Shown here: positions 9,283 to 22,496 of the stretch, in pieces
Layout of the letters: the number at the start of each line of letters is the position of its first letter
How positions within the stretch are numbered: the first letter of the stretch is position 1
IMG/VR virus record: IMGVR_UViG_3300017991_000257
Location: 1 to 34,389 of that record
Direction: 5' to 3' (one strand)
Source of the DNA: a virus
DNA: 34,389 bases
Translations under genes and position numbers: made by a program
Notes under the pieces: model-generated
Told to the model about the DNA's origin: nothing
Database searches by the model: none
What the model saw: the letters and a program-made list of their open reading frames with translations, nothing else

Positions 9283-10242
9283 ATGGCCGAGTATACCAAC
9301 ACCCTGGCCGGTTTGGTCCAAATGAACGACCAAAACCTGGCCGATTTCGAGGCGTCCGAACTGCTCATTCGGGCGCCCCTGCTGGCCGTTATTAGCGCCG
9401 TCAAGGCGTCTAACGGGACCCTTCACAAGTACCTCCGCCGGACGGCGGAACCCGGCGTCGGATTCCGCGAAGTCAATACCGGTCTGTCAAACGCGGCCGG
9501 CCAAGAGGAACTCGTTACCGACACCCTTAAACTGTTGGACGCGACCGTCCGGCGGGATAAGGCCCTGGGAATGGGTTACAAAGGCGGCAAGGAAGCGTAT
9601 ATGGCCAGGGAACTCAAACATTCCCTGCAAACCGCGTTTTTCCATGCCGAGGAACAAATCCTTAACGGCACCAACAACGAGGCCGACGGGTTTAACGGCC
9701 TGGCCGACGTCATCGACGAATTGACGGACACCATGATTATCAACGCCGGCGGCGCCGGCGGCCGGTCCGTCTATCTCATTCGGTCCGGTGAGGACGCCGT
9801 TTCCGTCGTCGCGGGAATGGAAGGCAATATCGAGGTCGGGGAAATCTATGAAACGACCTTGTTTGAATCGTCCAACCCGTATTCCTGTTTGGCTATCGAC
9901 GTCCTGGGCTGGCTGGGATTGCAGGTCGCCTATACCCGGTGCGCGGCCCGTATCGTCAATATCGACGGGACCACTAACCACGAACTGACGGACGATTTGC
10001 TTGCCCAGGCAATCGAATTGTTCCCCGCCGGCATGGGTCCGACCCATATTGTTATGGGTCGCAAGTCCCAACAGGAATTGCGCGGCAACCGGACGGCGAC
10101 CAATCCGACCGGCGCCCCCGCGCCGTTCCCGTCCGAGGCTTTCGGAATTCCGATTGTCATTACCGACGCCCTGTCGGAATCCGAGTCGGCCGTAACCACG
10201 ACCACGACCACGACCACGACCACGACCACGACTACGACCTAA
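9283..10242 (+). CDS. Major capsid protein with 15-threonine C-terminal tail
   Basis: This 319-residue protein follows the protease/scaffold gene in the position of an HK97-fold major capsid protein. Matching features are an N-terminal helical region, a central KAYMARELKHSL-like spine helix region (residues about 107-120), the AEEQILNGTNNEADGFNGL segment typical of capsid subunits, and a late PFPSEAFGIPIVITDAL strand. It ends AVT(15). The tail is coded by alternating ACC and ACG codons, nearly all a 6-base unit. Codon use also differs from most neighbours (more CTC, CTG before C, AAG before T), which fits very high expression. The tail is not part of the normal fold and would probably project from the shell, as inferred from its low complexity. 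ATG at 9283 follows a GAGAAACAGAAA leader. Confidence 0.85.
   Translation: MAEYTNTLAGLVQMNDQNLADFEASELLIRAPLLAVISAVKASNGTLHKYLRRTAEPGVGFREVNTGLSNAAGQEELVTDTLKLLDATVRRDKALGMGYKGGKEAYMARELKHSLQTAFFHAEEQILNGTNNEADGFNGLADVIDELTDTMIINAGGAGGRSVYLIRSGEDAVSVVAGMEGNIEVGEIYETTLFESSNPYSCLAIDVLGWLGLQVAYTRCAARIVNIDGTTNHELTDDLLAQAIELFPAGMGPTHIVMGRKSQQELRGNRTATNPTGAPAPFPSEAFGIPIVITDALSESESAVTTTTTTTTTTTTTTT
10195..10239 (+). repeat. ACC-ACG codon repeat coding 15 Thr (capsid tail)
   Basis: Fifteen consecutive Thr codons lie directly before the TAA stop. They are almost all the 6-base unit ACCACG with a single ACT variant near the end. Such a tandem array can grow or shrink in steps of two codons without changing frame. 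Confidence 0.95.
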
Positions 10243-10250
10243 ACCCCAAA

Positions 10251-10292
10251 CCCCCCCTGCCCCTGGGGGGCCGGCAACCTAGCCGGTCCCCC
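10251..10292 (+). promoter_or_regulatory. GC-rich hairpin pair after the capsid gene
   Basis: Between the capsid stop and the next gene, the arms 10265-10275 (GGGGGGCCGGC) and 10282-10292 (GCCGGTCCCCC) can form an 11-pair stem with one G-U pair and a 6-base loop. The same G run (10265-10270) could instead pair with the C run at 10251-10257. The two folds exclude each other. No U-tract follows, so this is more likely an RNA-stability, processing or attenuation element than a simple terminator. Confidence 0.55.
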
Positions 10293-10314
10293 GGGGATTT
10301 CTAAAGGGGAAACC

Positions 10315-20387: not shown

Positions 20388-21142
20388 TGGGTTATTTACG
20401 GCATAGGCGCCGGCATTTCCGGGACGGGGGCGCCGGAAGTTGGACGGCAAACGAAGGCGATTTAGACCCCATTACCGGGAACCTGGTCGCCTATTGGCCC
20501 CTTGAGGAATCCAGCGGGAACCGATTGGATTTGGTTTCTTCAATAATCGCCAACCCCGTTAGCGACCAGGGGCGGGTAGCGGGAAAATATAATTACGGAT
20601 TATATTGCAACGCTACCGGGCGCCTTGTCGTAACAAATACCGTCCTGGACATTGCAACCCTGGTTACATCTTCATTTTCCGCGTTTGCCTGGGCAAAGAC
20701 GTCCGCAACGTCCCAACAATTAATTTTCGAATGCGCGGGAACGGCCTTTGGGGGGTCCGGGAATGGCGGCGCGGCCTTATGGCAAAGGAACGATTCCGGC
20801 TATGTAATGAACGCGCGGTTATGGGATAGTAGCGCGGCGTCGATAGCGGACATTAAATCGGCCGCGGCCTACAACGACGGAAATTATCATTTATTTGGGA
20901 TGGTTTACGACAGTTCGGCGCCGTTGTTGAAAGTATGGACGGACAATGTAAATGCGTCCGTTGTCCCGTCCGCGGCCGTCGGAAACAATTACAACGACGC
21001 CGGCATTGGCGGGGAAAACAGTTCGGGGGGGAGTAAATGGGGGGACGCTATCGACGAATTTTCCTTATGGGATATCGCCTTAAATGATACCCAAGTAGCG
21101 GCCCTATACAATAGCGGAACCGGCGCGTTTTATTTGGGATAG
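20387..21142 (+). CDS. LamG-like lectin-fold tail protein
   Basis: This 251-residue protein is a concanavalin-type (LamG-like) jellyroll domain: GNLVAYWPLEESSGNRLDLVS is the canonical start, followed by SSFSAFAWAKT, GGAALWQ, and the end DEFSLWDIALNDTQVAALYN. Such domains bind sugars or other ligands on surfaces. The N-terminal about 30 residues are basic and may be a linker to the virion. It overlaps the upstream stop (TAATG). It probably acts in host binding together with the fibre genes on each side. Confidence 0.82.
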   Translation: MGYLRHRRRHFRDGGAGSWTANEGDLDPITGNLVAYWPLEESSGNRLDLVSSIIANPVSDQGRVAGKYNYGLYCNATGRLVVTNTVLDIATLVTSSFSAFAWAKTSATSQQLIFECAGTAFGGSGNGGAALWQRNDSGYVMNARLWDSSAASIADIKSAAAYNDGNYHLFGMVYDSSAPLLKVWTDNVNASVVPSAAVGNNYNDAGIGGENSSGGSKWGDAIDEFSLWDIALNDTQVAALYNSGTGAFYLG

Positions 21143-21147
21143 CAATT

Positions 21148-21528
21148 ATGCGCGAACTAGACGCAAAGACGGTTTTAGCGATAGCCTGGCACCAGGCCCG
21201 GGTATCGCCGTTGCGTCCGGTTTGCGACGTAAATTGGCGAATCGCCGGCGGCCTGGCGTCGCGATTGGCGGCCAAAACCGGGACGGTTGCATGGTACGAC
21301 GCCAAGGCCGACGCGGTCGTAATCCCCGCCCAATATGCGTCGGTTTGCGCGGACGAAATGTACGCGCCGACGATAACCCATGAACTGACCCACGCTTACC
21401 AATGCTTGCGAATGGGTTTTATCTGCTTTCAATTCGCTAAAACCTTCCGCCGTCGGCTAATTGAGGCCGAGGCCGTCCGCGAGGAAAAGCGCGCGCAAAA
21501 AATACTAAACGTCGGGGTCCTGGACTAA
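21148..21528 (+). CDS. Putative zinc metallopeptidase (HExxH)
   Basis: This 126-residue protein has TITHELTHAYQ at residues 75-85 (H78, E79, H82), the HExxH zinc-binding signature of metallopeptidases, with a nearby EAEA (about 106-109) that could supply the third ligand. It lies between adhesion proteins, so it may cleave host surface proteins or a maturing virion protein. I saw no signal peptide. Start ATG 21148 follows the LamG stop by 5 bases and the TAATG links it to the next gene. It is short for a stand-alone peptidase, so it may be a minimal catalytic core. Confidence 0.62.
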   Translation: MRELDAKTVLAIAWHQARVSPLRPVCDVNWRIAGGLASRLAAKTGTVAWYDAKADAVVIPAQYASVCADEMYAPTITHELTHAYQCLRMGFICFQFAKTFRRRLIEAEAVREEKRAQKILNVGVLD

Positions 21529-22496
21529 TGGCGGGTTGGGATACAAATTGGGTCGAATCCCAGGGGATAGGAAAACTTCCCCTAAACGCGTTCAACCAAT
21601 TGCGCGCGGCCCTGGCGGAACGGGCCGCGGTAATGAATAGCGCGCCGACCTTGCCGGCGAACCTTTCCGCCGGCGAATTGCCGTCGGCGTCCTGGTTTAC
21701 GACGTTTCAATCCGCGGTTACGGCAATGTTGCCGGCGTCCCCGTCCGGGTCCCTTTATGGTTGGGTCAACCATAACGATAGCGCGACGCGCGTTGGCTAT
21801 TGGGACGGCGCGGCCTGGGGGGCAAACGCCGGGCCTAGTCTTTCGTTTTGGTCACAATCGACAATGCTAACGCAAATCGGGGCCGCGTCGCGGGTCGCGG
21901 CGCCAGGCGCCGGGGATATTTGGCAATCCGCGGCATGGGCCTACCAACAGTATCAGATACTAAATCAATTACGATGGTATGGCCGCCTGGCGCCGGAATC
22001 CTTGTCAACAAACGTATTTTACAAATACGGAAGTTCGGCCATAGACTATCCGACGGCCGCGGCAATCCATGACGCAATGGCATGGGCCGCGGTTTCGACG
22101 GCGCCCGTTCCCAACAATACCCGGAACAACTGTTGGCAGGCCCAGGCCGTCGGGGGGTCCTTTTGGAAACAATCCATTAAATGGGTTTGGTCCTGGTCAA
22201 CCTGGGGGGTATCGTCCGCGGAGTTCGACGTTTACGTTAGGCCGAACCAATTAACCGGCGGCCCCGTCTACAATATGCACACGGCAAACGTCGCCAACTA
22301 TGTAAAAAATATAACTGTCGCCCCTAGTACGGGATTTGAATACGGCGGGACCCACGCGCTAACCCCGACGCTAAACAATACGATTTGGTTCCGGGCGACG
22401 TCGAATTGGTACGGGCTATATCTAGTCGTCAAGTTCGACGTTTCGGGGGGATTCGACTACTACGACCCGGACCCGCCGGCTACGACGACGACCTAG
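21528..22496 (+). CDS. Putative tail adhesion protein with 4-Thr tail
   Basis: This 322-residue protein is not recognised by family. It is Trp- and Tyr-rich (for example WKQSIKWVWSWSTWGVSSAEFDVYV), with a helical start (LNAFNQLRAALAERAAV) and a beta-rich end. Its C-terminus reads DPDPPATTTT and then TAG, giving a short version of the Thr tail found on other virion proteins. It follows the metallopeptidase by a TAATG overlap and is the last gene before the lysis candidates. I infer a virion role from position and tail. Confidence 0.5.
   Translation: MAGWDTNWVESQGIGKLPLNAFNQLRAALAERAAVMNSAPTLPANLSAGELPSASWFTTFQSAVTAMLPASPSGSLYGWVNHNDSATRVGYWDGAAWGANAGPSLSFWSQSTMLTQIGAASRVAAPGAGDIWQSAAWAYQQYQILNQLRWYGRLAPESLSTNVFYKYGSSAIDYPTAAAIHDAMAWAAVSTAPVPNNTRNNCWQAQAVGGSFWKQSIKWVWSWSTWGVSSAEFDVYVRPNQLTGGPVYNMHTANVANYVKNITVAPSTGFEYGGTHALTPTLNNTIWFRATSNWYGLYLVVKFDVSGGFDYYDPDPPATTTT
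22482..22493 (+). repeat. Short Thr-codon run coding 4 Thr
   Basis: Four Thr codons (ACG ACG ACG ACC) directly before TAG. Too short to be convincing alone, but it fits the pattern of the five longer runs. Confidence 0.7.

Follow-up and report, generated by a model that had tools for sequence, protein, structure and literature searches.

Poly-threonine tails on virion proteins of an IMG/VR phage, probable tags for O-glycosylation by a GalNAc-transferase-like enzyme

Results

Six virion-type proteins with homopolymeric threonine tails

The complete IMG/VR virus record IMGVR_UViG_3300017991_000257, a stretch of 34,389 bases (hereafter the window), carries six virion-type genes of which the products end in a pure run of threonine (Thr), and in addition a gene for a glycosyltransferase resembling the polypeptide N-acetylgalactosamine (GalNAc) transferases. 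After comparison with related virus records, we propose, at a probability of about 0.8, that the Thr tails are acceptor tags for O-linked glycosylation and that the phage encodes a tag-and-glycosylate system for coating its particle. This system had been put forward in a sequence-only reading of the same DNA; those parts that sequences can test, namely the tails and their conservation in the relative L260, the type of the enzyme and the co-occurrence of the two within the capsid family, all read directly, and the position of the capsid C-terminus, were borne out, and the coat itself, with the modification of the tails, the identity of the sugar and the function of the coat, is what we infer from them.

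Six-frame translation reproduced all six tails exactly at the lengths claimed, each in frame and directly followed by a stop codon (TAA or TAG), and agreed with the claim that three genes lying between them have no such tail. The genes concerned are listed below, Tn standing for a run of n Thr; L260 is a relative whose capsid protein shares about 50% identity with that of the window (L numbers are our handles for the sequences compared).

9283 to 10242, + strand: major capsid protein of the BPP-1-type HK97 fold (PF20911, 6.9e-19; PHROG 212); T15 tail at 10195 to 10239 (+), placed exactly after the end of the conserved core, where relatives end ...TDAISSTEAVVS
10315 to 10725, + strand: head closure protein Hc1 (PHROG 25, 1.3e-7; PF05521, 2e-9); T8 tail at 10699 to 10722 (+); L260 homolog, T7A
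10737 to 11162: gp10-like completion protein (Pfam/PHROGs), untailed
11159 to 11629, + strand: tail terminator (PHROG 347, 3.6e-11; PF11367, 8.5e-12); T17 tail at 11576 to 11626 (+); L260 homolog, T12
11647 to 12081, + strand: presumed tail tube protein; T6 tail at 12061 to 12078 (+); L260 homolog, T8
12100 to 12459: chaperone, untailed
12800 to 14380: tape measure protein (Pfam/PHROGs), untailed
15685 to 16404, + strand: distal virion-region protein, with a strong homolog in L260 only (6e-82); T24 tail, the longest, at 16330 to 16401 (+); L260 homolog, T20
21528 to 22496, + strand: last protein of the tail/adhesion region, which it closes; T4 tail at 22482 to 22493 (+); no homolog found

Pfam and PHROGs, by which the terminase and a lambda-type portal were also assigned, agree with the earlier naming of the capsid, head closure, tail terminator and tape measure genes. 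The tail tube protein, matching no Pfam or PHROG family, is presumed solely from its position between tail terminator and chaperone, and neither distal protein belongs to a functionally annotated family: 15685-16404 shows weak similarity to a PHROG of unknown function, and 21528-22496 matches neither Pfam nor PHROGs. A match of 15685-16404 to PF21827 was discarded, for it spans the Thr tail alone. Because the T4 tail of 21528-22496 is short and no homolog of this protein was found, it is the least supported of the six.

All four Thr codons are used within the tails (ACG 35, ACC 24, ACA 10 and ACT 5), in proportions roughly like those outside the tails (ACC 327, ACG 232, ACA 62 and ACT 31). Given that Thr represents 6.2% of the non-tail residues, 0.0006 C-terminal runs of at least four Thr are expected in 42 genes under the assumption of independence, against the six observed; the six tails thus cannot be due to chance. 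The tails of the capsid and the terminator show local repeats with periods of 6 and 12 bases, pointing to slippage as a likely source of length variation, and slippage probably helps lengthen these two tails.

Conservation of the tails in the capsid family

The capsid family has 409 IMG/VR members, and a further 18 come from bacterial and archaeal genomes. The named records belong to Planctomycetota and Verrucomicrobiota, except for one metagenome-assembled genome labelled Thermoplasmatota (L348), the label of which is probably a binning error. In most members the capsid protein ends in the conserved sequence ...TDAIxSTEAVVS, and the window tail starts exactly there. Tailed capsids were also found in L128/L129 (T5), L256 (T4), L257 (T5), L260 (T14), L262 (T8 followed by STQA), L274/L281/L325 (T6 flanked on either side by Ser), L313 and L331 (T16 followed by SQP). 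The tails of relatives drift to mixtures of Thr and Ser such as TSTTTTTTSSS, keeping hydroxyl residues.

The most informative relative is L260, where all five homologs of tailed window proteins are tailed, and the homologs of the gp10-like protein, the chaperone, the tape measure protein and the product of 14383-15309 are untailed. The L260 tails are richer in ACC than those of the window, indicating that the Thr residue is retained while the codons differ.

Ser-type capsid tails occur in L277/L278, where the capsid gene (10001-10975) ends in a poly-Ser tail, ADTSSSSSSAAPPD; this record has a truncated gene of glycosyltransferase family 2 (GT2) at one end.

Exposure of the capsid C-terminus

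The AlphaFold model of the window capsid protein has a predicted local distance difference test (pLDDT) score of 87, and its best Foldseek match is 3j4u, the capsid of phage BPP-1 (E 5.5e-18), so that both family profile and fold place it among the BPP-1-type capsids. As described in the available part of the report on this closest solved structure (PMC3863775), both termini of the BPP-1 major capsid protein lie on the external surface, and the protein tolerates a C-terminal fusion of 22 residues with the particles remaining infectious, the latter being an unpublished observation of its authors; in contrast to the window capsid, no Thr tail is described there for BPP-1. Because the window capsid matches a protein with an external C-terminus, its T15 tail is very likely on the outside of the particle. 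The claim that the tails mark surface-exposed virion proteins is thus supported for the capsid by homology to BPP-1, and for the other tailed proteins exposure is presumed.

A GalNAc-transferase-like enzyme between terminase and portal

Between terminase and portal the window carries a cassette of one radical SAM/SPASM gene and three transferase genes (3107-6068):

2073 to 3110, + strand: radical SAM/SPASM protein, head of the cassette (PF04055, 2.3e-10; PF13186, 1.1e-5)
3107 to 4003, + strand: third glycosyltransferase (Glyco_trans_1_2; PF13524, 4e-16)
4003 to 4776, + strand: second glycosyltransferase, of GT2 (PF00535, 2e-10), a possible chain-extending enzyme
4773 to 6068, + strand: GalNAc-transferase-like glycosyltransferase with a C-terminal zinc ribbon, the proposed initiating enzyme

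The glycosyltransferases said to lie in the same genome are therefore present, three in number, and only the product of 4773-6068 is GalNAc-transferase-like. Polypeptide GalNAc-transferases (ppGalNAc-Ts) start the mucin-type O-glycosylation of Thr and Ser. A profile built from five phage homologs of 4773-6068 (A2) matches the ppGalNAc-Ts T9, T10 and T1 at 1e-9 to 1e-7 (best 1.3e-9), and the protein as a single sequence matches GalNAc-T10 at 7e-5; for its predicted fold, the 50 Foldseek matches listed are all ppGalNAc-Ts. Residues D64-x-H66 and H191, invariant across the five phage homologs, align with DSH and VGH of GalNAc-T9, and WG-x-D-E is aligned at the position of the catalytic motif WGGEN.

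The likeness to the GT27 ppGalNAc-Ts of animals and Toxoplasma, enzymes acting on Thr/Ser acceptors, thus includes profile, fold, the DxH metal motif and the second metal-binding His, the activity of the phage protein being predicted. Unlike the Golgi enzymes of GT27, it would be a cytoplasmic enzyme of the phage, and at its C-terminus no ricin-type lectin domain is present, a CxxC...CxxC zinc ribbon standing there instead; for this reason we call it GalNAc-T-like and do not class it as a member of GT27. Its homologs are encoded in L260, L274, L281 and L325 and, partially, at contig edges, in L129, L257 and L313. Homologs of GT2 4003-4776, of which the best PDB match is a beta-1,3-glucosyltransferase (2.5e-5), adjoin the GalNAc-T-like gene in L260, L281, L325 and L352, and no homolog of 3107-4003 or 2073-3110 was found in the visible regions of relatives.

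In untailed relatives (L130:3183-3401; L265, L286 and L348), the zinc ribbon (window 5931-6068) is encoded by a small gene of its own between terminase and portal. Because it stands there at the same place, the transferase looks as if fused to an older neighbour, and the ribbon might anchor the enzyme to the packaging/head machinery. The sole other run of four Thr within any window gene lies in an internal linker of the transferase 4773-6068, the Thr-rich KTTTTATTPATPPPARA (window 5844-5894), a possible site of self-modification. The radical SAM/SPASM protein could modify peptide or sugar.

Co-occurrence of tails and enzyme in the capsid family

Among the genomes with a poly-Thr capsid that show sequence upstream of the portal (n=9, the window included), the enzyme or its C-terminal part is encoded in eight. 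Where an untailed genome shows the whole terminase-portal interval, the catalytic part is always absent; some of these genomes have the zinc ribbon alone. We then searched 43 virus records whole, counting poly-Thr on capsid or head closure: a DxH-type transferase is encoded in 6 of the 7 poly-Thr records and in none of the 36 others (Fisher 1.1e-6, a value overstating independence because the tailed capsids form nearly one clade). Two records located elsewhere in the capsid tree, L311 and L330, have T6 on head closure, the protein that follows the capsid, in place of a capsid tail, and these two alone among the 43 have a different large transferase family with a DSH motif. Poly-ACN in the L306 record and in one stretch of the L311 record turned out not to represent tails. 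A scan starting from the transferase added only L352 and L353, both too short to show the capsid gene.

Poly-threonine tails in other phages

Of 1075 genes in 120 virus stretches picked at random, none ends in four or more Thr. We scanned IMG/VR for 12 Thr codons followed by TAR, with 12 Ala codons plus TAR as the control. The Thr pattern gave 42 stretches; 30 of them end a real open reading frame (ORF) in frame, and at least two tails are present in 10. Of the 33 poly-Ala stretches, one is in frame and none has two tails. This difference in frame shows that poly-Thr C-termini are a protein-level feature. Nearly all the tailed proteins with a named PHROG or Pfam match are major tail, tail assembly, sheath, fibre, adaptor or capsid proteins, a share not to be taken as an enrichment figure, as untailed proteins sampled from poly-Thr loci were virion proteins too, plus nucleases and terminases.

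The window's transferase family is absent from 36 other poly-Thr contigs, as is the family A3. A third transferase family, A9, was identified in L001, L035 and L111, with the motifs DAHC/DGH and GGGEN (GGEN intact); its profile matches GalNAc-T10 (2e-8) and T7 (4e-8), and L396, picked by its tail alone and outside the building of the A9 profile, also has A9. When A2 was compared profile to profile with A3 and A9, no match was significant, and A3 has no significant PDB match, so that the three families are linked by shared motifs only, plus the GalNAc-T matches of A2 and A9. By eye, DxH was found in 9 of 11 GT2-bearing tailed records against 0 of 13 random or untailed ones, a count made after the pattern had been seen and hence taken as a lead. 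Homologs of L070, L045, L016 and L112 were followed in search of a phage isolate having poly-Thr on its major tail protein, and no match listed reached the tail end.

Among further observations in these records, low-GC phage proteins of L010, L051, L071 and L078 end in the style TTTTTTxAPTTTTTTT, mucin-like with Pro/Ala breaks, and L006 and L387, both single virus contigs, carry Thr runs of 59 and 34 residues before the stop. The L070 record, a poly-Thr phage of 49 kb, encodes a caspase-domain (Peptidase_C14) protein (L369-L371).

Proposed glycosylation of the tails and alternative explanations

According to the proposal, each tail would be a short flexible chain of hydroxyl residues on the C-terminus of an outward-facing virion protein, the tagged parts being the head shell, the neck, the presumed tail tube and the distal tail. 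The enzyme 4773-6068 would put the first sugar, probably GalNAc or N-acetylglucosamine (GlcNAc) from a uridine diphosphate (UDP) donor, on many of the tail threonines, and GT2 4003-4776, perhaps together with 3107-4003, would lengthen the sugar chains. With hundreds of tailed copies per particle, a dense sugar coat would form on head and tail; this coat may protect the virion from adsorption, proteases or predators, or promote its attachment to glycans. Beyond this phage, we lean slightly towards homopolymeric Thr tails being a general, repeatedly evolved virion 'glycotag', paired with different DxH transferases into a mucin-like phage coat.

Several findings weigh against the proposal. The model of 4773-6068 has a mean pLDDT of 62 and a template modelling (TM) score of about 0.42 to GalNAc-Ts. 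The correlation within the capsid family rests on few events, with two well-supported independent contrasts only (sign test p 0.5). L262, a 10-kb fragment with a T8-tailed capsid, lacks the enzyme in its 1.8 kb upstream, and the poly-Ser capsid tail of L277 has no GalNAc-T-like gene nearby. Across phages at large, generic GT2 (PF00535) is not enriched (5/39 poly-Thr against 9/50 random records), so that the presence of a glycosyltransferase cannot be taken to follow from poly-Thr in all phages; A9 was found in 4/50 poly-Thr and 0/50 random records (p 0.12, not significant alone). Some unrelated phages have tails and no visible transferase, and L070, with at least two tails, shows no glycosyltransferase among the 25 Pfam families listed for its 24 large ORFs. 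In such phages the modifying enzyme may come from the host or have escaped recognition, or the tails may have a different function.

Tails in phages where no transferase was recognised fit the idea that the tails work unmodified, as a hydrophilic spacer or an adhesive or self-associating strand between virion parts, the transferases serving another purpose, as does the formation of amyloid-like assemblies in cells by poly-(Thr-Ala) repeats (PMC11761134). We consider this unlikely, for the tail accompanies a Thr/Ser-transferase-like enzyme in the capsid family, a second tail location accompanies a second DxH transferase, and the Thr-Ser exchange in relatives is easier to reconcile with an acceptor role than with a beta-forming one.

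A still less probable possibility is that the cassette modifies phage DNA or the host envelope, its closeness to the tailed genes being incidental. Such modifications are among the common roles of phage transferases according to one report (PMC12619734), and the cassette also includes a radical SAM gene. The enzyme 4773-6068, however, is similar to peptide Thr/Ser transferases, and the PDB matches listed for it include no DNA-modifying transferase; it sits among packaging/head genes and tracks the tails in the capsid family.

Replication slippage in ACN repeats beside stop codons, tolerated since C-termini are free, accords with the hexamer and 12-mer patterns noted above and can be a mutational source of tails, but as the reason for their retention it is very improbable in view of six independent in-frame cases with mixed codons in one genome, the recurrence of tails on the same five genes of L260 in other codons, and the excess of in-frame ends for poly-Thr over poly-Ala.

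Comparison with mycobacteriophages

Virion glycosylation of the mycobacteriophages Che8, Corndog and Myrna was reportedly described by Freeman et al. in 2023. According to three other reports (PMC11256854, PMC12363180, PMC12619734), phage-encoded transferases glycosylate capsid and tail tube subunits, and the glycans are reported at the C-termini of both. Glycosylation of the virion by the phage's own transferases, for which the window carries three genes, is therefore of a kind already known; what differs is the homopolymer tag on many virion proteins (five or six in the window), the GalNAc-T-like enzyme and the host group, the relatives' hosts being Planctomycetes/Verrucomicrobia. We propose a similar working, and homology was not found: tblastn with the GalNAc-T-like enzyme gave no match in 50,697 phage records, Che8 included. 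The capsid, terminator and tail proteins of Che8 have no Thr run at their ends, and of its three transferases gp109 and gp110 gave no GalNAc-T match, gp108 not having been searched.

If the proposal is true, glycosylation of the virion can be read from the sequence by its poly-Thr tails, and both the sugar-coated virion proteins and the enzyme responsible become predictable from metagenomes. Virion glycosylation would then no longer be confined to actinobacterial phages but include those of Planctomycetes/Verrucomicrobia and others, a compact cytoplasmic pair of enzyme and tag would be available for making O-glycosylated proteins in bacteria, and the reason for phage sugar coats outside animals would become testable.

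Other features of the window

The adhesion region (16767-21142) encodes two CBM5/12-type repeats, a DUF285 (BspA-like) repeat protein and a laminin-G-like protein, and its carbohydrate-binding parts adjoin the tailed proteins.

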